NCBI GenBank assembly: GCA_016647705.1
Contig: CM028327.1
Span: 11,854,365 to 11,918,364, forward strand
From: Eucommia ulmoides
Taxonomy: Eukaryota; Streptophyta; Magnoliopsida; Garryales; Eucommiaceae
Reading direction: 5' to 3'
DNA length: 64,000 nucleotides
Part shown: positions 9,387 to 63,959 of the stretch, in pieces
Numbering within the stretch: position 1 is the first letter of the stretch
How the letters are laid out: each line of letters opens with the position of its first letter
The notes under the pieces: model-generated
Seen by the model: only the letters and a program-made list of their open reading frames with translations
Databases searched by the model: none
Told to the model about the DNA's origin: nothing
Position numbers and translations under genes: made by a program

Positions 9387-11419
9387 TGTCACGACCCGGT
9401 TTTCCAGGGTCGCTACTATGGTTTCTCCTATAGAGAATTTCTACCCCAAACCGACTGGTCGAATGTCCAATCTATAAAATTCGGTAAATTTTATAATAAT
9501 GGCAATAACTCTAGTTGTCGATTTTACGACGGAAATTTTCAAATATAATAATCACCATTTTAAATACGACCAAATAATCAATCATTTATTTTAATTTAAT
9601 CCACGAATTATATATATATATATATATAATGGCAACAAGAAATTAGTAATTCTTTTAAGAAAAACATCTTTTAATTTACCATATGGCGGCAAAATTTAAA
9701 ATTACCAAGTTTATAATTAAAAACCGAATTTCCAACATTTGATCAAATCCGTTATCTTAAAACCATTTTTATTAAACCCGAAAATTCAATATATTAAAAT
9801 TAGAGACATTTTACAACGATTACGATAATTATAATTACCGTTTCCTCCAATTTATATCCATCCATTTATAATCCTAGTAATAATACAATTTTATACAATA
9901 CAACTATTTCAAAATATAGATAATGAAATTTAGCTAATTTATCCATCGTCGTCCTACTTTCTCTCTTTCTTTTCCTTTCCCATCAATTTGAAAGAATTAA
10001 ATAAATAATCTTCTGCAAATATTCTCTTTTTCCTTTTTCAGTTTAAAAAAATAAATAAATACAATTATTACAAATGGAAATTTAAATAAAAGTCTTTTCG
10101 TCGTTTTGTCCCCGCCAACCCTGCAACCAAAAACTATGGGGTTGTGAGCCAACGCTCAGTAGAACTCCAACCCCTCTAATATATGCATTTAATTAATATA
10201 ACATATAAACCACATTAGCATACTTGTCACATAAATTCCACATCGTCCAAATTATTTCATGTGATTAAACAGGTAAAATGTCACAACGATTTACCAAATA
10301 ATTTCATCATCACACCATGAGACAATTAAATACATATATTAAGAGAGTTCGGAATTCTACCTGCTTCGAATCGTCCATTTGCCGCAAGATGAATTTTATT
10401 GGGGTTGTTTGTGTAATTCTTGTTTTTCTTTTTCTTTCTCTTTCTTTTCCTGTTTTCTGTTTTTTGTTCTGCGACAGCCGGCACCGCTGCTACGTCGGGC
10501 TCACCGCCGCAGCGAATGCCACCCCATCTTTGCTCTGCTCACTGAAAACTCACCGCCGCGGCGAACGCCTCATTGCTGCGGCGATGGTCACTGTTTTTTC
10601 GCTTTGTTTTTTCGGTTTGGAACCAGCCACTAACTCTCTCTCTCCTCACCACCTCCAACGATCACCCTCGCCGCTCTTCCTCAATGATCTGAGCACACAT
10701 ACACACACAGAAAACTCATACACACATACCCCCGATCACATACCCATACTAAACACATACATACATACTTCTCTACCGACTTAACTCCACGGTCGACGAC
10801 TACCACCAACCGCCGTCGAACCAACTCACACCACCGTCACCCCTGTCGATCACCCACTACTCATACACACGCCAAACAAATGGAGGAACACACCCACACC
10901 CAAACGCCAAACACACACACCCACATAGTCACCGTCGACTGATCAACAACACACACATGGCACACACAACACACACACACGACAGCGCACACACTCACCG
11001 CCAGCGAACCATGACGACGAACCCACGTCGGACTGTCTTCTCTCTCTCTCTACTCTCTACTCCTGCGACGACGACGACGACGATCAAAACATGTACCACC
11101 GACGACCCCACACCCACAGCCGACGACCACCCTCAATGGAACACCCCCATGCGATGAACGAGCAAAAAATATACATACACGCACGCTGGACTGAATCACG
11201 CCAATCACACCGCCGACCGAACAATGGACAACCAAAACCCACACCGGCAATGACGACGCCACACATTTCTCTCCTTTGTTTTTTCCTTTTCCTTCTATTG
11301 TCATGTGTTTATATATATATATATATATATATGAGTTGAAAAAAAAAGGCCCAAGCCCTACCAGCGATAGTAAGGAGAGAAAGAGGTAAGGTCGGTAGGG
11401 CTTGGGCCTTTTTTTTCAA

Positions 11420-11459
<40 letters not shown>

Positions 11460-11659
11460 TATTATTTATTTTAGTTTTAATTAGATAAATCTCCCTCTAA
11501 TTAAAATTTTGAATCATTTAAGTTCAAAAGTTTACAATTTGTATTTTGAAAATTGCTAATTAATCCCTCAAATTTTAAATTAAAAACTATAACACTATCT
11601 ATCTCATAATTTCCTGAATGTGCGAAAACGCGTCTTAAATAAAAAAACAGGGTCTTACA
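9387..11659 (-). repeat. 3' LTR of gypsy-like LARD
   Basis: On the plus strand it starts TGTCACGACCCGG and ends GGTCTTACA, aligning along its length with 15050-17347. It includes a (CACACA)n and (GACGAC)n-rich stretch (10690-11260) that opens spurious ORFs on both strands. It differs from the other LTR by an inverted segment near 11363-11410. Confidence 0.85.
11331..11433. repeat. Long inverted repeat (hairpin) inside the LTR
   Basis: The left arm, ATGAGTTG, an A-run, then GGCCCAAGCCCTACC (11331-11362), is mirrored by GGTAGGGCTTGGGCC, a T-run, then CAACTCAT (11394-11433). The loop is 31 bp, and alternating AT on both sides extends the stem. The sister LTR (16983-17050) has only one arm followed by 'GACCTTACCTC', which appears here in inverted orientation. 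Confidence 0.9.
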
Positions 11660-13885: not shown

Positions 13886-14282
13886 TCGTAGGATTTGCCT
13901 TCCTAGCGGGTCACAACACTCTGCAGGATTTTGCCTAACAGATAATCAACGATCTACTGGACTTTGCCTAGCAGGTAATCAACGCTTTGGCAGACTTTGC
14001 CTAGCAGGTAATCAACGTTCTGTCATATTTTGCCTAGCTGATAATCAACGCTCTACCGAATTTTGCCTAGCAGGTAATCAACGCTTTGCCGGACTTTGCC
14101 TAGCAGTTAATCAACGCTCTGCTAGACTTTGCCTAGCAGGTAATCAACACTCTATCGGACTTTACCTAACAGATAATCAACACTCTGTCGAACTTTGCCT
14201 AGCAGAAAATCAACGCTCTGCCGGACTTTGCCTAGCAGATAATCAATGCTCTACCGGACTTTGCTTAGCAGGTAATCAACAT
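13886..14282. repeat. 33-bp minisatellite, about 12 copies
   Basis: The unit 'GACTTTGCCTAGCAGGTA' plus 'ATCAACGCTCTGCCG' repeats about 12 times with point differences. Because 33 is divisible by 3, one plus-strand frame stays open for 148 codons and encodes an 11-residue repeat (LAGNQRSAGLC). It lies inside the LARD interior, so I read it as a satellite rather than a gene. Confidence 0.9.
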
Positions 14283-15049: not shown

Positions 15050-17096
15050 TATCATGACCCGATTTTTCAGGGCCGCTACTATGGTTTCTCCTATAGAGAA
15101 TTTCTACCCCAAACCGACTGGTCGAATTTTCAATCTATAAAATTCGATAAATTTTATAATAATGGCAATAGCTCTAGTTGCCGATTTTACAACGAAAATT
15201 TTCAAATATAATAATCACCATTTTAAATACGACCAAATAATCAATCATTTATTTTAATTTAATCCGCAAATTATATATATAACGGCAATAAGAAATTAGT
15301 AATTATTTTTAAAAAAAATATATCTTTTAATTTAAAATTTAAAATTACCAAGTTTATAATTAAAAACCGAATTTCCAACATTTGATCAAATCTGTTATCT
15401 TAAAACCATTTTTATTAAACCCGAAAATTCAATATTTTAAAATTAGAGACATTTTACAACAACTACAATAATTATAATTACCGTTTCCTCCAATTTATGT
15501 CCATCCATTTATAATTCTAGTAATAATACAAATTTATACAATACAACTATTTCAAAATATAGATAATGAAATTCAGCTAATTTATCCATCGTCGTCCTAC
15601 TTTTTGTCTTTCTTTTCCTTTCCCATCAATTTGAAAGAATTAAATAAATAATCTTCTGCAAATATTCTCCTTTTCTTTTTTCAATTTAAATAAATAAATA
15701 AATACAATTATTACAAATGAAAATTTAAATAAAAGTCTCTTCATTGTTTTGTCCCCGCCAACCCTGCAACTAAAAACTATGGGGTTGTGACCCAACGCTC
15801 AGTAGAACTTCAACCCCTCTAATACATGCATTTAATTAATATAACAAATAAATCATATTAGTATGCTTGTCACATAAATTTCACATCATCCAAATTATTT
15901 CATGTGATTAAACAGGTAAAATGTTGCAATGATTTACCAAATAATTTCATCATCATACCATGAGACAATTATATATATATATATGAAGAGAGTTCGGAAT
16001 TCTACCTACTCCGAATCATCCTTTTGCTGCAAGATGAATTTTCTTGGGGTTGTTTGTGTAATTCTTGTTTTTTTTTTCTTTTTCTTTCTTTTCCCGTTTT
16101 CTATTTTCTGTTCTGCGATAGCCGGTACCGCTGCTGCACTAGGCTCACCGTCGCGACGAATGCCACCTCATCTCTGCTCTTCTCTCTGAAATCTCATCGC
16201 CCCGGTGAACGCCTCACCGCTGCGACGATGGTCACCATTTTTCCGCTTTGTTTTTTCGATTTGGAACCAGCCGGCGACTCTCTCTCTCCTCACCACCTCC
16301 GATTATCACCTTCTCCGTTCTTCCTCAATGATCCGAGCACACATACACATACATACCCCCGATCACATATCCATACTAAACACATACATACCCACTTCTC
16401 CGCCGACTTAACTCCACGGCTGACGACCATCATCAATGGACCACCACCTACCACTGTCGGACCAACTCATACTACCGTCACCCCCGTCGATCACCCACTG
16501 ACCACACCCACTACTCATACACACGCCAAACAAACGGAGGAATACACCCACACCCAAACGCCAAACACCCACACCCACACCCACACAGTCATCGTTGACT
16601 GATCAGCAACACACACACGGCACACACACACAACAGTGCACACACTCACCACCGGCGAACCATGATGACGAACCCACGCTGGACTGCCTTCTCTCCACTC
16701 CGGCGACGACGACGACGACGATCAAAACACACACCACCGACGACCCCACATCCACAGCCGACGACCACCCTCAACGGAACACCCCCATGTGATGAATGAG
16801 CAGAAAATACACACACACGCACGCTGGACTGAATCACGTCGATCATACCACCGGCCGAACGACGGACAACCGAAACCCACACCGTCAACGACGACGCCAC
16901 AGCTCTCTCTCTCATCTGTTTTCTCTCTTTCCTTCTACTGTCATGCATGTGTATGAAGTTATATATATATATATACAAATATATGAGTTGAAAAAAAAAA
17001 GGCCCAAGCCCTACCGACCTTACCTCTCTCTCTCCTTACTGTCGCTGACCGACTTTCCTCTCTCTTCTCTCTATTTTTTTTCCTTTTGATCTTATC

Positions 17097-17154
<58 letters not shown>

Positions 17155-17347
17155 GTATTTTAGTTTTAATTACATAAATCTCCCCCTAAATAAAAATTTG
17201 AATCATTTAAGTCCAAAAGTTTATAATTTGCATTTTGAAAATTGCTAATTAACTTCTCAAATTTTAAATTAAAAACTATAACACCATCTACCCCATAATT
17301 TTCTGAATGTGCGAAAACGCGTCTTAAATAAAAAACAGGGTCTTACA
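15050..17347 (-). repeat. 5' LTR of gypsy-like LARD
   Basis: On the plus strand it starts TATCATGACCCG (the TG terminus mutated to TA) and ends GGTCTTACA. It aligns over its length with 9387-11659, with scattered substitutions and short indels. It contains an (AT)n tract at about 17100-17151 and a (CACACA)-rich section around 16340-16640. Confidence 0.85.
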
Positions 17348-18639: not shown

Positions 18640-19462
18640 TTTGGACACTTGTAAATCCACCTAAGTGAATAGTTTTTATTGGGTGTAACTAAATTTTCAG
18701 GAATTAACTAGATTTAGATGGTAAAGTGGAAGTCTTAAAGGCAAAACTGGTGGCGAAACGGTATACTCAATGTCAAGGAGTTGACTATGGGAAGACTCTT
18801 TTGTTGGTCACCTTATTAAAGTCCATTAGGATTTTATTGAATATTGCAACATACCAAGATTATAAAATTTGGCTGATAGATGTAAAGATGGATTTCCTCA
18901 ATTGAAACATAGATGAAGAGATTTACATGCGTTAATTAGAAAGTTTTGTGATTGACGGGAAAAGTCAAAAGGTATGCATTGCAAAGTCTATTTATGGACT
19001 TAAGCAATTTTCTTGAAGTTAGAACATCTATTTTAACAAGGCAGACAAATATTTTGGTTACTTCCATAATATGGATGATCCATGCGTGTGCAAAAAAAAA
19101 TAGATGATAAAGTGATAAGCTTCTTGATGGTGTACTTCGATGACATTCTACTACTTTGAAATGATGTCATGAACTAATGTATGGATTTATCAATTTTTCT
19201 CCATGAATTATTTGGGAGAAAGGTCCTATATACTGGATATAAAAGCCTATAGAGATAGATCTAGGAAGATGCTTGAATTATCCAAATAGGGGTATATAGA
19301 TAAGTTTCTGGAGCAACAATATGACTTATTCTAAGAGAGTACTTCTACAAGTATGACATGCAATTCGTCTCTCTTGGAACATGAGTCACAAAACTTCCTA
19401 AAAGCAGTATGGATGAGTAAGATTCTATATGCCTTAGCAATTGGTAGTCTCATGTATGCTAT
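18640..19462 (+). pseudogene. Copia A reverse transcriptase fragment
   Basis: Across frames one can read 'LVAKRYTQCQGVDY', 'IDVKMDFLN', 'IDEEIYM', 'KSIYGLKQ', a degraded 'YFDD' in 'MVYFDDILL' and 'AIGSLMYA'. These occur in the order found in copia RT (LVAKGYxQxxGxDY, DVKTAFLxGxL, KSLYGLKQ, YVDDIL, AVGSLMYA). Many stops and shifts. It breaks off at the GCTAT target site of the next LTR element. Confidence 0.8.
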
Positions 19463-20993
19463 TGATAGGTGTAAATTACCCCTATATTTTTAAACCAAAT
19501 TTGTTAGTTTTCGAGTACGTTTATAGTGATTTTTATATGTTTTAATATGTTTTTATTCTTTTTGTATTAAAACAGATGCGTGGGGTGAAAAGGTATGAAA
19601 TAGGAGCATAAACGATCAGTTCGAACCAAAAGCGGACGAAGTTACGGTGGATAAACAAGCTCGAAAGCTAAAATATGAAAGAAGCCCACCGCCTAGACAT
19701 CCAGACCTCCGCCTAGGTGGTGAAGATGCTGAGAAAAGAACAAATGTTACTGATGGACCACCGCCTAGGCAAAAATTCATTCGCTTAGGCGGAAATCCAG
19801 CAGAGGAAACAAAGATAGGCTACTGACAGCCCTCCGCCTAGGCGGAAATTCCTTCGCTTAGGCGGAAGTCCAAAAGAAATATTTTCAAATCCTCCGCCTA
19901 CTTCTTCGCCTAGGCGAACAGCCAAATCGACCTACCTCCACCTAGGCGGAATTTTTTTTGCCTAGGCAGAGACCTTTGCGCAGAATAGATATTTTTAAGA
20001 TATTTTTTGGCCTATTTAAACCATTCTCTCCTCCTCTCTTCTGGCCTATTCATCCCCTAAGTCTTTAGGCTATATTTTAGGGTTAGTTTGAAGGGATTTT
20101 TGAGGGAGAGCTCTCAACCCAAGGTGGAAGATGAAGAGGGAAGCGATCGTTCGATAGTTTTAGTGCCAATTCTTCGGATATAGGCTAAGTCACTCATTTC
20201 TTCTCTTTGTTTTCTTCATTTTGGTAGTTGTTGCACATGTTTAGCTCGTTTTACATTGTATAAACGATTAGAGCCATGAGTTAAACATGGATTGTAATAG
20301 GGATTAATGTATTATTTATGAAAATGTAGTTTTGGTTGAATTTGTGTTTCGTTTATGGTTGTTCCTTATAATTTTGATTGTGTTGCCGTATTTTCTATGA
20401 TTATATGCTAGTTTAAATATATTGAGAATACGGGGTTTGACACTCGGGAGAGATAACCCTGGATTTGGACTAGGGTTAACACAACACAACAATCTAACGA
20501 CCCGGGAGAGCATTAGAAAGTGTGCAATCGATGACGTTGGGGCGAGACTCACGTGACCTAGAGTCATTAAGCGTTGAGGGAGACTTCGGCATTGACACGA
20601 AGTCACGTATTCCCCCGTCTTACACTCGAAAAAGGTGGCGAGGGAGTTTACGAACCGAGATTGTCGGATACGCTGAACGCCGTTAATGTTAACTAAAATG
20701 AAATCAAACGTATTTAAGTAAATAAAGTTAATCCCTAGGCAATCTACTCCCCGAAACAATCTCAAATTAGTATTTATAGTATAGTTAACTTAATTAGTAT
20801 TTTAGTTTAGTATTAGTATTAAATTAAATTCCATTTTTAGCGTCTAGATAAAATTAGGTTACGACAATCGCGATACTCGATAGTAATCTCAACCAATCCC
20901 TGTGGATACGATACCTGACCGAAAGGTCCACTATACTAAAACTTGATCCGTACGCTTGCGATGAAAGTGACAGCGCTTAATTAGCGACCACCA
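19463..20993 (+). repeat. 5' LTR of tRNA-Asp LARD
   Basis: It is 1531 bp, the same length as its partner at 22818-24348, and differs by scattered substitutions. It contains a cluster of CCGCCTAGGCGG-type palindromes (about 19690-19975) and 'GGCCTATTTAAACC' near 20010, a plausible TATA region. Confidence 0.92.
19690..19975. repeat. Cluster of CCTAGG-centred palindromes (5' LTR)
   Basis: About nine full or partial copies of CCGCCTAGGCGG or TTCGCCTAGGCGAA, separated by 15-40 bp. The same cluster recurs in the 3' LTR at 23045-23335. Confidence 0.85.
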
Positions 20994-22817
20994 AGTTTTT
21001 GGTGCCGTTGTCGGGGATTGGATTTTTGGGTGTTATCGATATCGTGAGTAAATAACTTGATTTTAATTTAGGTATTTTTGTATATAATTTTCGTTTGTAG
21101 TTTTGTTTTTGTTTCCGGCAGGATGTTTGAAGATGTTAGATTGATAGGTGCTCTTGCGGTTCGATCATTGAACATCTCTCCTATCTTGAGGGCATGTGTC
21201 GGGTCGAGGAAATTAAACCAAGCGCTTCTTGGGAGGCAACCCAGAATCACAACTAAGTTAGATACATCTCCATCAATTTGAGTCAGAGGCGATATTCTCT
21301 CACCTCCCAGGTATGTGTTCTAAACCCCCATCTTCAATATCATGCTATATACTGTCATTGGGATCGCTGACGGATCGTTTTGGACATCACCTGTTTTAAG
21401 TTGGTGGTGATGTGTAGTATGTTTTAGTATGTGTTTATGTTATTAGTTAAGTTTTATTGTTTTTAACGTTTGCATACTTGTTTAGGATTAGTTTGTGTAG
21501 TTTAGTTGTTGTTTTGTGCTAAGTTTTGACGTCATGTGGGCCTTTACCCGATGATGACTCTATCCCCTGATTGTTTTGAGGTCAAGCGTCATTCATGTGT
21601 GATTCTGTGTGCTTAACGTCTCGTCTTAGAAAAAGTTATTGTAGATCCTAAATGCACGAGCACGTAAACTCAATATAGTACTCTAATTGATTTGAAACCG
21701 ATTATCTGTCAATCAATTTCATGACGATAGGGATTCTAGAACTTGATTTGGGGGAAATTCGAGGCGAAATTCTAGGCGAGGTTGTTTAGGAGATATGATT
21801 TAGGCATTCATTTGATGGCTTAGGCCTTTTTAAGCTTACCCTAATAAATCATTACCCTTCGTTACCCTGTCGAAGCCTAAAAGCCGTTTCAATTCTGAAC
21901 ACTTAACAAATACCCTAGCCGATTGAACTTTTTTCAAACCTTTATCGCTGAATTGATGGCACAATTTAAGTGAATCAAGTTAGCATTTTGCTACTTGATG
22001 TGAGCGGTTGGGTTTAAGGTGAACTTTTAAATTGATTCGGTATTCGAGTACTCGCTTGTCGTATGTCTTTCATATTTTTGCACACTCCTAAAATTGTAGA
22101 AATTCAAATGAGTTTGGGGGTGTATTACTTAATCCTTTTTGCATACACCTTAAATTGTAACAATCGAATAAGTTTGGGGGTGTGTTCGAAAAAAAAAATT
22201 ACGTTTCTTGTTAACAAGTGAGTACTACGTTTTTAATTGTATTGTTCAGGGTTGTTTCTAATTAAACTATGGGGTTTTGAGAGTGAGAAAGGGCCAAGCA
22301 TGTGCCTCGAGTATCGTCACGTTAACGACGATTAACCTATTTTGTATTTTCAATATACCCGTGGCCATTATTCCAAAACCGAACTAAGGCCTACTGATCT
22401 TTATGAACCTCCGAGCCTACATTAGTGGAGAATAGATCCCTGGTCAAGAATATAGATTCCCTATACCTTAAAGGTTTTAGTCATGATCTTTATTTAGGGA
22501 TAATCCCATATAATCAATGGATAGTAGTATATTTGAGTTTAATCACACACACTTAAACATGATCTAGAATGGCACTTACTATTTTTGAACGTTGAAATTC
22601 TAGAACACCACATGGTGTGATTTATGCTTGAACTTGATAGGATTGGGCGCCGATGAGGGAAAATCTTTCGGCCGATAGATGATAATCAAAACTTACACAT
22701 TTTTATTTTTAGTGTTTTTAGTTTTTAGTTTTTAATTTCGTAATTAGTTTTTATATTTTCTCATATTGTGTAGGTGTTTTGCTCGAGAACTAGCAAAATT
22801 CTGAGTTTGGGGGTATT
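20994..22817 (+). other. Interior of tRNA-Asp LARD, noncoding
   Basis: 1824 bp without a retroviral-type ORF. It begins with the primer site at 21000-21016. At about 21219-21243 it has 'AAGCGCTTCTTGGGAGG' followed by CAACCCA, a leader motif I recall from Athila-type elements. A 67-codon ORF (21078-21281) spans this motif but has no recognised domain. The interior ends with a purine tract at 22803-22815. Confidence 0.7.
21000..21016 (+). other. Primer binding site (tRNA-Asp type)
   Basis: TGGTGCCGTTGTCGGGG differs by two transitions from TGGCGCCGTTGCCGGGG, the complement of the 3' end of plant tRNA-Asp(GUC). It starts 6 bp after the 5' LTR. Confidence 0.85.
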
Positions 22818-24348
22818 TGATAGGTGTAAATTACTCCTATATTTTCAAACCAAATTTGTTAGTTTTCGAGTACGTTTATAGTTATTTTTATATGTTTTAA
22901 TATGTTTTTATTCTTTTTGTATTAAAATAGATGCGTGAGGTAAAAATGTATGAAATCGGAGCATAAACGATCAGTTCAAACCAAAAGCGGACGAAGTTAC
23001 GGTAGATAAACAAGCTCGGAAGCTAAAATATGAAGGAAGCCCACTGCCTAAGCGTCCAGACCTCCGCCTAGGCGGCGAAGATGTTGAGAAAAGAACAAAT
23101 TTTACTGATGGACCACCGCCTAGGCGGAAATTCCTTCGCCTAGGCAGAAATCCAGCAGTGGAAACAAAGATAGGATACTGACAACCCTCCGCCTAGGTGG
23201 AAATTCCTTCGCTTAGGCGAAAATCCAACAGAAAGATTTCCAAGTCCTCCGCCTACTTCTTTGCCTAGGCGAACAGCCAAACCGACCTACCTCCGCCTAG
23301 GTGGAAATTTCTTCACCTAGGCGGAGGCCTCTACGTAGAATAGATAGTTTTTAGATATTTTTTGGCCTATTTAAACCATTCTCTCCTCCTCTCTTCTGGC
23401 ATCTTCAGCCCCTAAGGCTTTAGGCTATATTTTAGGGTTAGTTTGAAGGGATTTTTGAGGGAGAACTCTCAACCCGAGGTGGAAGATAAAGAGGGAAGCG
23501 ATCGTTCAACGGTTCTAGCGCTAATTCTTCGGATATAGGCTAAGTCACTCATTTTCTCTCTTTGTTTTCTTTATTTTGGTAGTTGTTGAGCATGTTTAGC
23601 TCGTTTTACATTGTATAAACAGTTAGGTCCATGAGTTAAATATGGATTGTAACAGGGATTAACGTATTATTTATGAAAATGTAGTTTTGGTTAAATTTGT
23701 ATTTCGTTTATGGTTATTCCTTATAATTTCAATTGTGTTGCCATGTTTTCTATGATTATATGCTAGTTTAGATATATTGAGAATACGGGGTTTGACACTC
23801 GGGAGAGGTAACCCCGGATTCGGACAAGGGTTAACACAACACGACAATCTAACGACCCGGGATGGCGTTAAAAAGTGGGCAATCGATGACGTTGGGGCAA
23901 GACTCACGTGACCTAGAGTCGTTATGACATTGAGGGGGACTTCGGCATTGACACGAAGTCATGTATTCCCCCGTATTACACTAGGAAGAGGTGGCGAGGG
24001 AGTTTACGAATCGAGATTGTTGGATACGCCGAACCCCGTTAATGTTAACTAAAACGAAATCAAGAGCATTTAAGTAAATAAAGTTAATCCCTAGGCAATC
24101 TACTCCCCGAAACAATCTCAAATTAGTATTTATAGTATAGCTAACTTAATTAGTATTTTAGTTTAGTATTAGTATTAAATTAAATTACATTTTTAGCGCC
24201 TAGATAAAATTAGGTTATGACAATTGCGATACTCGATAAAATCTCAACCAATCCCTGTGGATACGATACCCGACCGAAAGGTCCACTATACTAAAACTTG
24301 ATTCGTACGCTTGCGGTGAAAGTAGTAGCTCTTAATTAGTGGCCACCA
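22818..24348 (+). repeat. 3' LTR of tRNA-Asp LARD
   Basis: It begins TGATAGGTGTAAATTA after the purine tract and ends CCACCA before GCTAT. It has the same length as the 5' LTR and carries the palindrome cluster at about 23045-23335. Confidence 0.92.
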
Positions 24349-42287: not shown

Positions 42288-43924
42288 TTTATTTATTTAT
42301 TTAAACTAACTTTTACTGGTCACATTATGTCGTTGAAACAATCACCCCGTATGTGTCTCCTGATTATTTTATGTTGGAGTCTTGTTGGAATCTCATCATG
42401 ATATTCTTGTCTGAAGTATGGACTTGCCTATAGACAACAAATCTCCAATGTTAGTCATCCATAGTTGCACGAAGCAGGGGTGGGATCAGGAGCGGGAAGC
42501 AGGGAATAGTTGAAGTCTAGGAGGTTCAAAGGTTTGGAGCGGTTAAGAAACATGTAACGTTTTTAAGACAATACAATGCATTTACTAGTGTACAAATATT
42601 TTATTTGGAATAACATATTTTCACAAAATACTATGTTTTTTTTTGAAGTCCTATTCATGTTTTTCTATATTAAAATAATTGTTAGGCTAAAGTATTTGAA
42701 AAAAAAAAAAGTTATTTTGAGATTTAGTTGTGATAGGAGCATGGTGAGAGTGAGGCTTTAACATGATAGGAATGAGTTTGATGTGAGATTCTCAAGAAGA
42801 AGTGCAGAATTGCGAGCCTGACAAGGGAACATGGCTATTTTTAGAAGGATCCTGCAACTAAGAATTCTCATCTACGTTTCTGGGCCCTTAACCCGTTTCT
42901 CTCTATTATGATAGAGAATAAGGAATCCTTCCAAAAGAGTATTTAGTGATGCAAACAACTTCTAAAACTTAACCTACCACTTTATCAATCAGTGATGAAT
43001 TTTTCGAATGCGCCATGCCACAGGTTTAGTTGTGATAGGAGTGTGGTGGGAGTGAGGTTCTAACACGGTATGAATGGGCTTGGTGATGTGAGATTCTCAG
43101 TAAGATGTGCGGAATCACGTGCCTGACAAGGGAACATGTCCATTTTCGAAGGATCTTGCAACTAAAAATTCTCATCCACGTTTGCTTCAATTTGGGCCTT
43201 AACTCATGTCTCTCTCTTTAGGATAAAGATTTAAGGAATCCTTCCGAAAGTGTAACCTTGTGATGCCAGCAGCTTCCAAAACTTAATCTGCCACTTTTCC
43301 CAATCAGTGATAACCTTTTCAGATGTGCCATGCCATAGTTTGGCTTATGCATAATTATTTTTGCAGATAAATATGGTTGAAATTATATTTTGATTTATTG
43401 TTTATCTGCAATAAAGTTTTGTTCTGAATTTGTTGGATTTGGCATATATAGCAAGGGATCCTAGAAAATTAGCCGGTGATAGTGTTCATGCTTATGAATC
43501 GGGAGAGGAATTATGGGCCTACTTGTATCTTAAGCATTTAATGGAATGTGGGAACCTTAACACTCAAAAGTACAACATGTGTTGTTCCGAATGAGTTCAA
43601 ATCTATCAATAGGCACCCAAGGAAGTGCAGCGATTAGAAATCCTGTAGGTAGGGTGTATATCTTATGTGACAAAATATAAATCTAGGCAAGCATTACTCT
43701 TTGAATAAAAGAACCTGGAAGAGGGATCGTCGACAGTAATTAATAATTTTACAAAAGTGGCTCTGTCTCACTTTTTAACTGATTTCCTTGGCTAGGTACT
43801 TCCATATATCTGCATATTGCTTGCTGTAAAATGTTCTATAGATCTTTAAGAAGTTCTTGCAATAACTTTTTGGGATATGCTTTGTCAGCTTCTCTAACTC
43901 TATTACCTTGTGTGTGATGAGCAG
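41433..43924 (+). other. Intron 1 of exonuclease gene
   Basis: 2.49 kb, GT at 41433 and AG at 43923-43924. It contains an (AT)n tract (42239-42280) and a 305-bp tandem duplication. No further exon is required, since phases on both sides are 0, but a small extra exon cannot be excluded. Confidence 0.7.
42719..43336. repeat. Tandem duplication, about 305-310 bp
   Basis: Copy 1 (about 42719-43022) and copy 2 (about 43023-43336) both run from 'TTTAGTTGTGATAGGAG' through 'CTGACAAGGGAACATG' and 'AAGGAATCCTTCC' to 'GCCATGCCA'. They differ at many sites and small indels. No ORF is conserved between them. Confidence 0.85.
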
Positions 43925-44153
43925 GGTTACTGCAAATTGTGTCATAGTTTGAATTTGGATGTGCCTCAAGTTGCTCATGCTGCTCTGTTGAGTAATATGC
44001 GTGTTACTGGAAGAGAACAAGTACCATACCAAGAAGCATTTCCTGATTCTGATCAGTCTAAAGATAGATCAGGAAACCTTGATTCTTCGCATGGCAGAGT
44101 GATGCTTATTGATGGCACATCCATTATTTATAGAGCTTACTACAAGCTTCTTG
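43925..44153 (+). CDS. 5'-3' exonuclease family protein, exon 2 (start of nuclease domain)
   Basis: 76 codons plus one base, between acceptor GAGCAG and donor TTG|GTATATG. After a linker ('GYCKLCHSLNLDVPQ', 'YQEAFPDSDQSKDR') comes 'RVMLIDGTSIIYRAYYKL'. This is the N-terminus of the Pol I-type 5'-3' exonuclease (PIN/FEN-like) domain, where the Asp of 'LIDG' binds the catalytic metal and 'YRAYYKL' begins the first helix. Such proteins remove RNA primers and flaps or process DNA ends in plant organelles. The reading frame is open throughout, with no sign of decay. It ends in phase 1, completed by the next exon. Confidence 0.9.
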
Positions 44154-44671
44154 GTATATGATTCTCCCCATTGTAATGTAATATTTAGTTCCTTTTTTGA
44201 GGAAGTGTGAGATTTGGTTTTTATTATATCTCCATGGCATTATTTTGGTATATTTGTTAAGTTGGTGGCTGTTGCTTGTTCTTCTTCCCTCTCTTCCTTG
44301 TTAATTTCTCGCATGCTTAATTATCTTTGCAAAACATGGACTTGAGGAGTATTTGGTCGATATTCCTGGTTCCGGATGGTTCTCTACCTGACAATTATAT
44401 ACCACACCGGCCATTATATGAGAAGTTTAGTTGGTTCAGTCTCCACTGTTTTATCAGACATGGATTTCGATAAAAATTCTACTTTCTTTCACTTCTTTGC
44501 ATAAATTTATTGCAGCTAGGTGTTTATACTTGTAGATTTAGCTCTGATAAACCTAAAATTAGCTCACTTGTAACCAAATTGCATATGTTTCTTCCCTTTT
44601 GACTGCGAGTATATTTATTTTATGCTACTAACTTGTTTCGGTTTTTTTTTTTCTCTTGGGGTATTGAGCAG
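44154..44671 (+). other. Intron 2 of exonuclease gene
   Basis: 518 bp, GT at 44154 to AG at 44670-44671, T-rich before the acceptor. No repeats recognised. Confidence 0.85.
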
Positions 44672-45505: not shown

Positions 45506-45510
45506 ATGCT
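45506..45510. other. Target-site duplication of copia B (left)
   Basis: ATGCT, identical to 51080-51084 after the 3' LTR. Confidence 0.9.
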
Positions 45511-45516
45511 TGTTAA

Positions 45517-46787
45517 GGTTGTGTTTGGATAGAGGATTTCTAGAAGAGATTTCATTTGGTTAGAGGATTTTGAAATCCTCTTTTGACAAATTCCTTGTTT
45601 TGGTTTGTTTGGGTTTTAGGAAAGAGGGATTTGTCAAATCCTTTTAGGGGTGAAATGAGGGATTTGGAAATACCTTTGAGAGGGGTGTCATTTGCCAATT
45701 CCTTCCAAGAGAGGATTTCACAATCTCCTCACTGATTAACCTGAGCGCTCATCTCTTTCTTCTCTTCGCGACCACTGACGATGAGTTCTCTTTCCCTTTG
45801 CGACCACCGACGATGACGAGCTTCTTCGTGACCACCAATGATGACGAGTTCGGTTTGAGTGTTCATCGATCGGGTGGATCTATATGCTCCGGGGTGGTGA
45901 GACGAGACGAGACGAGACGAGACGAGGTGTAGCGCAGTCTGGTTAGCGCATCTGTTTTGGGTACAGAGGGCCATAGGTTCGAATCCTGTCACCTTGATGT
46001 GACGCTGGAGTCAGCAAATACTTCTCGTCGTCCATCATCGTCTTCTTCTTCGTCGCTGTTCTGTTGTTGCGTCGTCATCTTCTTCGCTTCTGACTCCCAA
46101 CCGCCGTGCTCATCTCCATCTTCGCCGTCATCTTCATCAAGTGGTCGGTGACGCCTCCGGCGATGTCGTGGCATCGCTCGCTCTGTCGTCTTCCAAAGTG
46201 GTCGGCGATGGTAGGTAGACAACAAATTTAGGTTGTGTTTGGGTAAGGGATTTCTTCCTTCATTTGCTGGATTTGTGTTCGAATTGGGTGACGGTGTTGC
46301 AGATTTGTTCAATAGAAACCCTTCGCTACTTTGTCTTCGTTCGATTTGGGTTCGATTTAGGATTCCGACTTGGGTTCGATTGATTTCGCTTCTTTGTCTT
46401 CGTTCGTGGCTATAGATTTGAGTTCGTTGGGGGCAGATTTGGGTTCGATTGATTTCGCCGACAACCGCCGACGCCGCCTTCACGACGATTGCCGACGTTT
46501 AGCTCTGTGTTTTTTTTTTTTTTTTTTTAAGTGGGATCAGAAAAAGAAAAAAAAAAATTGTTCCCATAAATTTGTTGTTGAAATTTGGGATTAGAAGAAT
46601 ATTGTTTACAAATACTTTACCTATCCAAATAAGGGAATTGTAAATTATACCTTCAAATACTTCAATTCAAATAATTATCCAAATAATTATCCAAATAAGG
46701 GGGAATTGTAAATTACACGTTCAAATACTTCAATTCAAATAATTATTCAAATAAGGGATTTGTCAAATCCCTTACCCAAACACAACC
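45517..46787 (+). mobile_element. Harbinger-type TIR element carrying a tRNA gene
   Basis: Ends GGTTGTGTTTGG and CCAAACACAACC are flanked by TAA on both sides (45514-45516 and 46788-46790), a PIF/Harbinger-type 3-bp target. Removing 1271 bp plus one TAA restores a 148-bp copia B 5' LTR (TGTTAAAA...), confirming the boundaries. A third copy of the terminal repeat starts inside at 46231 (GGTTGTGTTTGGGTAAGGG) and matches the right end better than the left terminus does, so the element is composite. The interior has no transposase but carries a tRNA-Pro sequence and GC-rich gene-like DNA with CGTC/CTTCGTT repeats. Confidence 0.85.
45923..45997 (+). tRNA. tRNA-Pro(UGG), plant-mitochondrial type, captured
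   Basis: It folds as a complete cloverleaf: acceptor CGAGGTG/CACCTTG with discriminator A, D stem GCGC/GCGC, anticodon stem TCTGT/ACAGA with loop TTTGGGT (anticodon UGG), and T arm ATAGG-TTCGAAT-CCTGT. The sequence closely matches plant mitochondrial trnP as I remember it and is unlike nuclear tRNA-Pro. It therefore probably came from mitochondrial DNA. It lies inside a TIR transposon, directly after a (GACGA)n microsatellite (45900-45925). It has good A- and B-box-like positions, but expression is unknown. Confidence 0.85.
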
Positions 46788-46932
46788 TAAAAAGGTATTT
46801 ATGTCTTTCCTGTATTACTTAGGGTTTCTTGTACAGTTTAGAGTTTGCTGTATGGTTTCCTAATTTCTATTATAAATAGAAGGAGAGGTTAACACAATTG
46901 TTAACCTTTTTTATTCATTTTTCTCTTTAACA
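46788..46932 (+). repeat. 5' LTR of copia B (right part)
   Basis: The remaining 142 bp of the 148-bp LTR plus the duplicated TAA; the first six bases are at 45511-45516. It contains TATAAATA at 46871-46878, the likely LTR promoter, and ends TTTAACA. Confidence 0.9.
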
Positions 46933-50931: not shown

Positions 50932-51079
50932 TGTTAAAAGGGTATTTATGTCTTTCCTGTATTACTTAAGGTTTTTTGTACGGTTTAGGGTTTACTGTAT
51001 GGTTTCGTAATTTCTATTATAAATAGAAGGAGAGGCTAACACAATTGTTAAACTTTCTCATTCATTTTTCTTTTTAATA
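50932..51079 (+). repeat. 3' LTR of copia B
   Basis: 148 bp, TGTTAAAAGGG to TTTTTAATA. TATAAATA at 51018-51025. The last bases are TA instead of the CA kept in the 5' LTR. Confidence 0.92.
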
Positions 51080-51084
51080 ATGCT
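51080..51084. other. Target-site duplication of copia B (right)
   Basis: ATGCT, as at 45506-45510. Confidence 0.9.
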
Positions 51085-52004: not shown

Positions 52005-52110
52005 TTTGAGATTTATACTAGAACTACATGTTCTTAGAAGATTGCAAGTTCATACGGTTTGAGATTTATATTAGAACTACATGTTCTTAGAAGATTGCAA
52101 GTTCATTCGG
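52005..52110. repeat. 53-bp tandem duplication
   Basis: Copies at 52005-52057 and 52058-52110 start TTTGAGATTTATA and end TTCATACGG and TTCATTCGG. They abut the inverted repeat that follows. Confidence 0.9.
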
Positions 52111-52279
52111 CAAGCTACTTGTATATCGAGATTTTCTAATGCACTTCAAGATAGCCACGAGGTTGCTCTCCTTGACGAACCGTATGAACTTGCAAACTAC
52201 AGGGTCTCGATATAAGGTGATCAACCTCTTGGCTATCTTGAAGTGCATTAGAGAGTCTCGATATACAAGTAGCTTGCCG
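52108..52279. repeat. Inverted repeat with 58-bp arms and 56-bp loop
   Basis: The left arm 52108-52165 (CGGCAAGCTACTTG ...) and right arm 52222-52279 (CAACCTCTTGGC ... ) pair with three mismatches. The loop contains 'ACCGTATGAACTTGCAA', the reverse complement of part of the adjacent 53-bp repeat, so two inverted relationships are nested. Confidence 0.9.
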
Positions 52280-55199
52280 ACAGGGTTGTGTAGTGATTGA
52301 ATGTCGTGGCAAGCACAAGAGAGCGGAGCACTCATTCTACGAAGCTCGTAATGAGGAATGCGATGAAATTGAGTTCGCAGAAAATTCAGATGGTATGTAG
52401 GCTTACCTTCGTCTGGTGGGACGTAAGGTGCCGCACGGTCTTTCATTCCGCCGTGCCAAAAAGGTCGGACCGTGATAGTTGGTGTCAGAGCTAGAATGTC
52501 TCTCGCGAGGTGTATTCAAATTGGAAAAGTACTCAGGCTAGTACAAAAAGACTTCTGGAACCCTGATACTTATTGGAATAAGGGGCGATACAGGTACCTT
52601 GAAATGGGGATTGTGTTGTATCCGAGACCACAACAAGACTTGGTACTACTTGACTTGTCCCTGCACGCATATGAGAAGTAGTAAAAAGAGATTGGGTAAA
52701 AAAAATTGGTGGTGTTGGTGGAAAGAAGTGGGGCTGTGAAGTAAGATTGAAGTGAGTTGGCTGGTTAGGCGGGATGAAGGTGGTGGTGGAGACAAGGTGG
52801 TTAGTTTTGATGCCTAGGTGTGTACACACCCAGAGGGAGGGAGGGAGATTTTTCCTTAATGCGTATAAAATGTGAACTTTCTGGCTTTCCAGCTTTACTG
52901 GATATCTCTCCCAGCCAAAATTATGTAATCCAAGTTTTTTGTAAGTGATTGGTTCAAATCTTTTGCAATCCCATTCAACTTTGCTAACTATAGGGAGATA
53001 TGGTTCTTTACTATTACACCTCTAAATAGTAGGTGCCCAATGTACAATTCATCAATGCATGATGGGTAATGTCACATGGTTGAATTTTACCGCAAAAATT
53101 ATAACCGAGTGATGGCCTAGTTGCACCGACAACTATTAGCCCCGTGAATGTCCTGCCACGCAACGGAAACACACCGACTGTATGTAAAACACACGTTCCT
53201 GCAACGTTATACAACAGATTATACACCGAAACACAGTACCAGAAAAGCACCAACGCAACGACACAATAACGTTTACGGGAAAACCTAACCTTGTATTATA
53301 TAACTCAAGTTACAAGGAACCAATTACAACAATAGTCTGTAAATCCGCAGTAATACATTCACTAACTAAAAACAGACAAAAAACATGACTATTTATAGGA
53401 GAAAATAACAGTTGACAGCTCCAATTGTCTAGGTAGACAACCGACACCTGTAGGACACGTGTCCAGCCTACAGGAGTTAGTTTCCTGTCTGAAAACTAAC
53501 CAAAACTGCCCAGAAAACTGTCCAGAATTCCCAGTCTATCAGCTCACCTTGAGCTTAGCTTCATTCCAGCGTTTTTGCATCGTGCCCACATCTTGTCTCG
53601 TTGTCATCTCGTTCCATAGTCATGTTGACGTTCGCCAACGTCTTGTCACACCGCTTGCATGGCCAGAACGCGTCGTTGCGCCCACGTTCTGACTCGTTGC
53701 GTCGTTGCGCCCAATGACTTTCTAACGAACGCCAAATGCATTTTCCGCACCAAAATGCACCGCCGTTCCCAACAGTCTATCATAACCTGCACATGATTCT
53801 GCCTACAACGTAGCGTTGCGCCGTTTTGTGGTCCCGTGACTCCCCACGAAAACCCAATTCCGGCATCTTCTGCCAAGCTACCAATGTGCGTCAAGGTCGC
53901 CCAACGGCACACCATTTTGCCAACGCGTGCCCAGTAGCTTGGTCCAACGCCTCCCCATTCCTTCAACGCATACTGCCGCGTCTTGGCCCTCGTTGCCTTG
54001 GTCGTGTGCCAAGGTCTTACTCATTGCCATGCGGGTCCCACATAGCACTGATCCTAGCATTGCGCCTAGGATCGCCCAACACAACGCCCAACCCCCTCTG
54101 GTGTTATGTCGCAACGCTGTCCACCAAGTTGCACTAGGTTGATGCCTTTGTTTCCAACGCCTTCGTTTGTGCCGCCCACATCACGTCCGATAGCAAACTG
54201 CACCATGTTCGTGCCAACTAGTCCTCCAGCTTTGTTAGGGGCTAACAGGTAACCACATAAGTTGAAATTAAACAAGATGATGCTTATATTGCTTGCATTG
54301 TATGCAACAGAATTTACTTCAGGGTTCAAACTTTTGGTTTTTGACGATCCAACAACTTAATATTGTAAGTAATTTATCATTCTAAGACATGGAATGAAAC
54401 GAAGCAGATAAAAACATCTCTTTAGGTTGGGCCGAATTTGGCCAAAAAGAAAAACGAACTGGTGAAAGAAGAGAAATATTGGTGGGCGTGAGCTATGATT
54501 AGGGAAGGAAGAATGGACTTTGTTATAATGAGGTATTTTTGGACAATCATTGTGAGTATTTGGGAGGTCATCCAAAAAAATGAAGAAATGGCAGAAAGGT
54601 GAAATTGAGATTTGCGTAGATGGATGGTGTTGGTAATTTTATGCTCTATTAAACTAAGAAACTTACAGGAAATGAAAAATAAGAGGTTCTCTGTCAAACT
54701 CTTTTCTCTCGCTAGAATCTTGTGGTTTTGCTTGTGGAGACTATGGATCTTCGGCAATCTAGTCATTCACAAGACCTCCCAAGAATGTCTTTGGTCGATC
54801 AATTTATTGGTTGATGGCCCACACTAAGCAAGGGTGGAAACAATGAAACACCTGCTAGAAAAATGGCTCCTAATGATTCTAATATCACTACGGGATCTGG
54901 GCATTGAAGAATCTACTTGAAGATGGAAATTAAAAGCACTTCTGCTGCAAAGCATGAAGAACTGGAACCGAAACATGCCATAAGACAAGGGAAGCAATAC
55001 CACAACAGCTGTATAGGATAAACAAGAGACAGAATTAGTAATTGTTATGCTAGATGAGATCTTGTTCGTTTTTCCGGAGATTATGTTTTTCTTTGGTGAT
55101 AAACTGTACAATTTCTTGGAACCTTTGAACCATGTTTGTGGCTAGAAGAAGTGTCAATTTCCAATTGAGATCTGCCCTTAAATTGGGGAAGCATCTTAT
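52280..55199. other. Intron sequence, possible old LTR-element fragments
   Basis: No confirmed gene. TGGTGTCAGAGCT at 52480-52492 looks like an LTR-element primer site. 53640-54200 is GC-rich with many CAACG/CGTTG words and overlapping ORFs on both strands, as in LTRs. 54420-54830 has AT-rich ORFs without recognised domains. I could not define element borders. Confidence 0.35.
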
Positions 55200-61960: not shown

Positions 61961-61971
61961 CTCCCCCTCAA
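61961..61971 (-). other. Polypurine tract of copia D
   Basis: Minus-strand TTGAGGGGGAG, overlapping the stop codon of pol. Confidence 0.9.
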
Positions 61972-63959
61972 GCTGGTATGAAGATATCTTCCATTGTCAG
62001 CTTGCATATTAGATAGTCGAATCTCTTCTTTGGTAATCCTTTTGTTAGAATGTCTGCGATCTGTTCAGTAGTCGGTACATATGGCATACATATTTGTCCA
62101 CTATCGATTTTTTCCTTGATGAAATGCTTGTCCACTTTCACATGTCTTGTCCGATCGTGCAACACCGGATTGTGAGCAATCGCAATGGCTGATTTGTTAT
62201 CACAGTAGACCTTCATAGGTACTGAATTAGATATCTTCAACTCTCCGAGTAATCTGTTAATCCATAACACTTCACAGATGCCGTGAGCCAATGATCTGTA
62301 CTCCGCTTCTGCGCTGCTTCTAGCTACGACATTCTGTTTCTTGCTCCGCCATGTGACGAGGTTTCCACCAACAAAAGTACAGTAACCAGAGGTCGATCTC
62401 CTGTCCGTGATGCTCCCAGCCCAGTCTGCATCGGTGTAAACCTCTACAAGGTGGTGGTCACGTTTCTTGTACAAAATTCCCTTTCCAGGACTACCCTTTA
62501 AGTACCTTAGTATTCTATAGGCAGCATCGAAGTGTTCTTGTCCTGGTGAGTGCATGAATTGGCTGACCATGCTTACGGCAAAGGCTATATCAGGACGGGT
62601 ATGTGATAAGTAGATTAACCGCCCCACTAGTCTTTGATATTGTTCTTGGTTTATCACAGCTTCAGGTTTGGCCGGTTGTAGTTTCTCATTCGGTTCACTT
62701 GGAGTTTCTACAGCTTTGCACCCGAGTAACCCTGTTTCATTCAGTAGGTCGAGTACATACTTTCTTTGACTCACAAATATGCCTCCCTTTGATCTAGCAA
62801 ATTCCATTCCAAGAAAATATTTTAATGGACCTAAGTCTTTTATTTCAAAATTATCAGCAAGTTTTCCTTTAAGTCTTCTCAACTCGTCACTATCACTTCC
62901 TGTTAAGATAATATCATCTATATAGACAATTAAAATGGCAATCTTACCATCAATTGAGTGTCTATAAAACATAGTATGATCTGCTTGGCTTTGTTGATAA
63001 CCCTGACCTTTTACAGTGGTTCCAAAGCGTTCAAACCACGTTCTTGGAGACTGTTTTAGACCGTATAGTGACTTCTTTAACTTGCACACCTTTCCTTGTC
63101 CTATCTTTCTTTCAAAGCCCGGTGGTAAACTCATGAACACTTCTTCCTCCAAGTCTCCATTTAGAAAGGCATTTTTCACGTCTAATTGGTGTAGTGGCCA
63201 ATCAAGATTCACAGCTAAAGACAATAGAACCCGAATCGAGTTTATCTTAGCAACTGGAGCAAATGTTTCTTGGTAGTCTATTCCATATGTCTGCGTGAAC
63301 CCTTTAGCCACGAGCCTTGCTTTATACCGTTCTATGCTTCCATCTGCCTTATACTTAACTGTGAATACCCACTTGCACCCGACTATCTTTGTATCCTTTG
63401 GCGAATCAACTATTTCCCACGTACCACTCCTTTTAAGAGCATTCATCTCTTCCAGAATTGCTAGCTTCCAACCTGTATCACTTAGTGCTTCCTCAATGTT
63501 CCTTGGAATAAACAGATTAGTAACTTTAGAAGTAAAGACTCTATAAGGTTCGGAAAGTTTTGTGTAGGATACATATCTAGATATGGGATGATTGGTGCAG
63601 GTTCTAACTCCTTTCCTGATGGCTATAGGGATATTAAGATCTGGAGGAATACTGGAATGAGAAGATTCATCAGGAGGTGGTGAAGATATAGGATTACCTG
63701 GATCATTGCTTGGGGAGTCGGATTGACCTTGTGCTAGAACAGTAGGCTGATCTGTATTCTTTTTTGTACCTCTCCGAGTATAAACCTGCAACTCAGTACA
63801 TGATTGTGGTATTTCTTCATCTGTTTGTGAAGGAATTATGCTCGGCATTTGTGTACTAGTAGGAATCCCTTTTTGTTTTTCAATATTGTCATTACTTGTT
63901 TTTGACTGATTTGGAGGAAAAATTTCTAAGACTGTGGTAGGGAGAGGATCATCAGTGAC
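61968..63959 (-). CDS. Copia D pol: RT and RNase H (partial, open frame)
   Basis: The frame is open for 664 codons from after a TAG (63960-63962) to the stop at 61968. Order: an acidic, serine-rich linker, 'ALKRSGTWEIVDSPK', 'CKWVFTVKYKADGSIERYKA' then 'RLVAKGFTQ', 'LDVKNAFLNGDLEEEVF', 'KKSLYGLKQSPRTWFERF', 'VYIDDIILTGSD' (YIDD), 'KDLGPLKYFLGMEFA', 'SHTRPDIAFAVSMVSQFM', RNase H 'YTDADWAGSITDRRSTSGYC', 'SSAEAEYRSLAHGI', 'YCDNKSAIAIAHNP' and 'ADILTKGLPKKRF'. All catalytic acids of RT and RNase H are present. The TAG upstream breaks the polyprotein within the variable linker, so the copy is probably not autonomous as it stands. Confidence 0.92.
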   Translation of the reverse strand, partial: VTDDPLPTTVLEIFPPNQSKTSNDNIEKQKGIPTSTQMPSIIPSQTDEEIPQSCTELQVYTRRGTKKNTDQPTVLAQGQSDSPSNDPGNPISSPPPDESSHSSIPPDLNIPIAIRKGVRTCTNHPISRYVSYTKLSEPYRVFTSKVTNLFIPRNIEEALSDTGWKLAILEEMNALKRSGTWEIVDSPKDTKIVGCKWVFTVKYKADGSIERYKARLVAKGFTQTYGIDYQETFAPVAKINSIRVLLSLAVNLDWPLHQLDVKNAFLNGDLEEEVFMSLPPGFERKIGQGKVCKLKKSLYGLKQSPRTWFERFGTTVKGQGYQQSQADHTMFYRHSIDGKIAILIVYIDDIILTGSDSDELRRLKGKLADNFEIKDLGPLKYFLGMEFARSKGGIFVSQRKYVLDLLNETGLLGCKAVETPSEPNEKLQPAKPEAVINQEQYQRLVGRLIYLSHTRPDIAFAVSMVSQFMHSPGQEHFDAAYRILRYLKGSPGKGILYKKRDHHLVEVYTDADWAGSITDRRSTSGYCTFVGGNLVTWRSKKQNVVARSSAEAEYRSLAHGICEVLWINRLLGELKISNSVPMKVYCDNKSAIAIAHNPVLHDRTRHVKVDKHFIKEKIDSGQICMPYVPTTEQIADILTKGLPKKRFDYLICKLTMEDIFIPA

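Follow-up and report, generated by a model that had tools for sequence, protein, structure and literature searches.

The window, the whole stretch of 64,000 nucleotides of Eucommia ulmoides DNA that was analysed, contains a Copia retrotransposon whose 5' long terminal repeat (LTR) is interrupted by a terminal inverted repeat (TIR) element. This element in turn contains a mitochondrial-type insert with an intact tRNA-Pro gene. The features are as follows.

45506-45510, no strand: ATGCT, left target duplication of the Copia retrotransposon
45511-46932, plus strand: 5' LTR of the Copia retrotransposon, interrupted by the TIR element (aligned to the 3' LTR)
45514-45516, no strand: TAA, left target duplication of the TIR element
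45517-46787, no strand: non-autonomous Tourist/PIF-Harbinger-like TIR element, 1271 bp (TIRs, genomic copies, 3-bp target duplications)
45845-46022, plus strand: mitochondrial-type insert (NUMT), 178 bp (alignments to contig L010 and to an insert on contig C11)
45899-45926, plus strand: GAGAC array, 5.6 units (Tandem Repeats Finder, alignments)
45923-45997, plus strand: tRNA-Pro(UGG), plant mitochondrial type, intact (ARAGORN, RF00005)
46138-46232, no strand: second segment private to the window copy, absent in seven aligned copies
46788-46790, no strand: TAA, right target duplication of the TIR element
50932-51079, plus strand: 3' LTR, uninterrupted, with the empty site
51080-51084, no strand: ATGCT, right target duplication of the Copia retrotransposon

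Between the LTRs, which differ from each other at 13 of 148 positions, lie partial gag sequence and parts of a Copia-type reverse transcriptase (RVT_2). The 3' LTR is without the TIR element and has a single TAA at the corresponding point, representing the empty site. The location is nuclear: contig C3 is chromosome-sized (46.5 Mb), and the fragment is flanked by element and Copia sequence. Elsewhere in the window, a minus-strand open frame of 626 aa (61968-63848) encodes a Copia polyprotein with up to 72-78% identity to plant Copia proteins. Direct repeats of about 2.3 kb lie at 9389-11659 and 15052-17347 (84% identical), and others of 1.5 kb at 19462-20993 and 22817-24348 (92% identical, 1.8 kb apart). 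The window also holds 11 tandem copies of a 33-bp unit within a 148-aa open frame (13914-14280) and a 174-bp imperfect palindrome, 83% self-complementary (52107-52280). An open frame at 43898-44158 had no Pfam match; it resembles an exon from a plant gene of the 5'-3' exonuclease family.

The TIRs of the 1271-bp element begin GGTTGTGTTTGG, and a TAA adjoins each member of the outer pair (45517 and 46787). The TIR pattern occurred three times in the window with up to 3 mismatches, whereas 100 shuffles gave 0.02 on average. The TIR pair, its flanks and the empty site bear out the preliminary description, which had proposed a TIR element with a TAA duplication. The family is large, with 2619 first-look candidates, 40 of which were scored and gave 90 matches. 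Both ends were present in 8 of 15 family sequences scanned, and all eight had equal 3-bp flanks (TAA or TTA in seven, TAT in one). The assignment to PIF/Harbinger is based on these 3-bp duplications and on the motif GGTTGTGTTTGG, which is of the PIF/Harbinger (Tourist-like) kind. The element core is CpG-rich (observed/expected 1.26-1.52, insert included) and the arms are CpG-poor (0 and 0.22). At least 152 matches to PF13359 (DDE_Tnp_4) were found in the genome, with 150 of 691 candidates scored. At 20 transposase loci, no TIR pair was seen in stretches of 3.4-3.6 kb, which were perhaps too short, and four of these loci had one-sided TIR matches. None of 325 protein database candidates for the right-core open reading frame reached E ≤ 1, and pattern searches of the viral_contigs set gave 0 matches.

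The sole tRNA found in the window by ARAGORN was tRNA-Pro(TGG) at 45923-45997, and it matched RF00005 with a score of 62.1 bits (E 4.6e-11). The complete tRNA-Pro(UGG) cloverleaf named in the preliminary description was thus recovered at exactly the same coordinates. Motifs TAGCGCAGTCTGG and GGTTCGAATCC, the internal promoter boxes of tRNA genes, were both found. A T-run terminator was absent close behind the tRNA, the first TTTT being 513 bp downstream. From these features of the sequence, no tRNA product would be expected. We infer that the tRNA gene is a passenger without function, its cloverleaf intact through youth and not through use. The tRNA sequence strings did not occur in the literature text searched.

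The preliminary description had given the coordinates of the tRNA only; the mitochondrial-type segment is larger, with flanks of 78 bp upstream and 25 bp downstream of the tRNA. Since the mitochondrial genome of the plant is absent from the assembly (no long near-identical match to the mitochondrial region; 33/33 candidates scored, 35 matches, all partial), comparisons were made with another nuclear insert and with two contigs labelled Frankia, NZ_CAKJTL010000141.1 (L010) and NZ_CADDZT010000057.1 (L014). A pattern scan of genome contigs gave 17 loci, among which L010 and L014 also matched the flanks. A bacterial tRNA-Pro was rejected as the source, as the other 15 loci matched the tRNA alone (85-95% over 42-66 columns). 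The segment 45845-46001 was identical to L010 in 132 of 157 columns (4 mismatches, 21 gap columns) and had 4 mismatches and 24 gap columns of 157 against L014. L010 and L014 carry trnF-trnP and trnS-trnF-trnP, and on the basis of this gene order we take them to be plant mitochondrial sequence in root-nodule assemblies. The Frankia label of these contigs probably reflects host contamination of those assemblies.

The tRNA itself is identical to L010 and L014 at 74 of 75 bases, with one private change, C to T, in the D-loop. An antisense open frame over the tRNA (45732-46010, 93 aa) had 21 protein matches (21/21 candidates at E ≤ 1), including one of Psophocarpus tetragonolobus and Orf123b of Eruca vesicaria, which we take to be mitochondrial. 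The first seven matches covered 54-83% of the query, reaching past the tRNA into the upstream flank. These proteins appear to be fortuitous open frames in plant organelle DNA. The C form of the D-loop was present in 21/21 of them, as well as in L010, L014 and the C11 insert. Nuclear and plastid tRNA-Pro genes generally look different from the mitochondrial type, and all seven matches in the plant's own genome were of the mitochondrial type. These results support an origin of the fragment from mitochondrial DNA that included non-tRNA flanks. The mitochondrial origin suggested in the preliminary description is upheld in this respect, with a near-identical match to the presumed plant mitochondrial contigs that extends into flanking sequence.

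The last 21 bp (46002-46022) are unlike L010 and L014 and were matched in nuclear inserts only. We regard them as mitochondrial because two older inserts (L050 and L051) end at the same point, and a third (L048) nearly so. An explanation of 46002-46020 as 19 nt of repair filler was rejected, as the same bases are present in the C11 insert. The alignment of 45845-46022 to C11:34147409-34147571 sets the length of the insert at 178 bp; 162 of 178 columns were identical, with 15 gap columns and 1 mismatch, which is the C to T change in the D-loop. The GAGAC array of the window has three units (15 bp) more than that of C11. The presence of a complete tRNA within the insert might recall a mature mitochondrial tRNA that was reverse-transcribed and inserted, and we give this reading virtually no weight. 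It is refuted by the flanks: the 78 bp preceding the tRNA match mitochondrial contigs, the 25 bp after it are shared with other inserts, and the tRNA is followed by TGTG and not by CCA. Mitochondrial-type flanks on both sides indicate DNA transfer.

The C11 insert (L041, G000:C11:34147289-34147571) is a young mitochondrial insert of greater length, in which trnP is intact, and its sequence is close to that of the window fragment. The fragment could have been copied from this nuclear insert or a relative of it, and not directly from mitochondrial DNA. We consider this improbable, since recent copying of the same mitochondrial sequence explains both inserts equally well; the identity of 162/163 ungapped columns, the greater length of the C11 insert at both ends and its leftward match of at least 120 bp to the mitochondrial reference sequence would agree with it. 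This reading is about the source of the fragment and would fit both of the event orders discussed below.

The preliminary description had further suggested that other copies of the element would have spread an organelle tRNA through the genome. The bulk of the insert (query positions 341-506) was matched by the window alone among the 40 candidates scored of 2619. Of 14 family places fetched, the alignment across the site used the seven in which core sequence was present to its left and right; in the other seven, the core to the right was not matched. The fragment was absent in 7/7 of the aligned copies. A search of the 946.7-Mb genome of the plant itself (391 contigs) gave seven matches to 45845-46001, with 7/7 candidates scored. 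Besides the window, these comprise six trnP-region inserts, five with tRNA sequence and one, on C9, with the upstream flank only. None of the six (0/6) lies inside an element copy in the stretches of 5.0-5.5 kb viewed; near L048, there is a separate element copy about 1.85 kb away. Among these six, the C11 and C16 inserts still yielded tRNA-Pro in ARAGORN, which indicates that intact-looking trnP inserts also occur without the TIR element. Thus, nothing in the copies examined points to dispersal of the mitochondrial tRNA by the element, and spread is not supported. Other full-length copies with the tRNA, which the preliminary description had looked to as support, were not among them. Instead, the examined family copies all lacked the tRNA, the result that it had named as refuting its proposal in favor of a later, independent insertion. 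In the titles and opening parts of abstracts searched, which mostly excluded subscription journals, no mitochondrial tRNA within a TIR element was reported.

The window copy has a second private segment at 46138-46232. Genome search and alignment showed that 46144-46232 is about 80% like C14:21913427-21913524 and C6:14581578-14581675, and no element sequence was found at either place. This segment explains the 27-bp perfect "inner TIR": the TTTAGG preceding the inner motif TTGTGTTTGGGTAAGGG arrives with it. Nested or tandem TIR elements, with an inner TIR at 46231 paired with 46787, were rejected, as TTGTGTTTGGGTAAGGG belongs to the family core. The second segment hints that the window copy gathered more than one foreign piece, and capture during excision repair would also explain it.

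We compared the divergence of the fragment with that of its surroundings. The terminal branch of the window copy was 0.046 by the left arm (13 other copies, L034 dropped) and 0.088 by the core (7 copies). At 454 sites with the same base in all the other copies, the window copy differed 26 times; the corresponding private differences of the seven other copies numbered 9-22 at 420-466 sites. The mitochondrial fragment had 1 private substitution in 163. The fragment is therefore much younger than the separate branch of the window copy. Equal age of the fragment and the LTR pair had a p value of 0.019 (0.027 with 12 LTR differences) in an age arithmetic that assumes equal rates, rests on one substitution and serves as a guide, not a test. 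These comparisons suggest that the fragment is probably younger than the Copia insertion; that it was aboard the element at its last move seems unlikely, though well within reason.

An alternative order of events is that a mobile element took up the mitochondrial fragment, by gap repair after excision or by a NUMT landing in the donor copy, and later brought it to the Copia LTR without amplification. The clean TAA duplication bounding the whole 1271 bp and the two private segments of the window copy are consistent with this order. It also agrees with a fragment age anywhere from 0 to roughly that of the LTR pair; in the same arithmetic, with element arrival uniformly distributed over the lifetime of the LTR pair, the simulated chance that the fragment was already aboard was 0.30 (12 LTR differences) or 0.28, and it was 0.21 with another prior. 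However, a second copy with the fragment was not found (40 scored candidates; 7 fragment matches), and private changes are much rarer in the fragment than in the element copy holding it. We regard this order as unlikely. Slightly less probable still is the specific form in which a Harbinger-type element captured two unrelated fragments in its own excision repair and moved both into the Copia LTR. If this were true, an organelle tRNA gene would have traveled with a transposon on one or more occasions.

The junctions of the fragment were also compared with the element. CGAG at the left junction occurs both in the element, where most aligned copies read GACGAG, and in the C11 insert, which reads GTCGAG. 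The right junction has one or two shared bases at most, and a few core bases seem to have been lost. These features fit filler DNA in double-strand-break repair, a process reviewed for organelle DNA in PMC7037861. We favor, as the probable explanation, that the mitochondrial fragment is break-repair filler in a single old MITE copy, joined probably after the insertion into the LTR, with the tRNA as a passenger. A copy of an abundant, old, non-autonomous Tourist/PIF-Harbinger-like element would first have inserted into the Copia LTR. The 178 bp of mitochondrial DNA with the whole trnP would then have been joined into the CpG-rich core of this copy, most likely as double-strand-break repair filler using the CGAG microhomology on the left side. 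This joining was probably later than the insertion of the element copy into the LTR. Alongside the observed mitochondrial-type flanks, the element with its empty site, and the absence of the fragment from the examined copies, an absence limited by the scoring of only 40 of 2619 family candidates, we infer the repair mechanism and the order of the last two events.

The locus resembles Tourist-like MITEs in its TIR of the GGTTGTGTTTGG kind and in the TAA or TTA duplications of 7/8 copies. It differs in that 1271 bp exceeds the usual length of a MITE. A transposase partner was not found at 20 loci of 3.4-3.6 kb, stretches that may be too short to show one. It is similar to Pack-TYPE transposons, for which the Harbinger-PIF superfamily was among those surveyed (PMC8903248), as a TIR element with foreign internal sequence. 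In contrast to these, its main foreign piece is organellar and non-protein-coding. Among the 40 family candidates scored and the seven fragment matches, a single copy bearing the fragment was found. Earlier work has described NUMTs and NUPTs that co-localize with transposable elements, as well as organelle-derived tRNA genes in the nuclei of plants (PMC7037861 and PMC11110229); in Arabidopsis and sorghum, many NUMTs and NUPTs lie with transposable elements (PMC7037861). The present fragment is like plant NUMTs in being a short nuclear mitochondrial fragment with microhomology at a junction, but in this case the whole trnP gene is enclosed by the core of a TIR element, which in turn occupies an LTR, and this nesting allows relative dating of the layers.

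The locus therefore presents a clean three-layer nest, with a Copia LTR, then a MITE and then mitochondrial DNA. Such elements may gather filler DNA while they are mobile. The nest illustrates that organelle DNA recently inserted into a transposon can be mistaken for cargo of that transposon, and it tempers the reading that transposons spread organelle tRNA genes.
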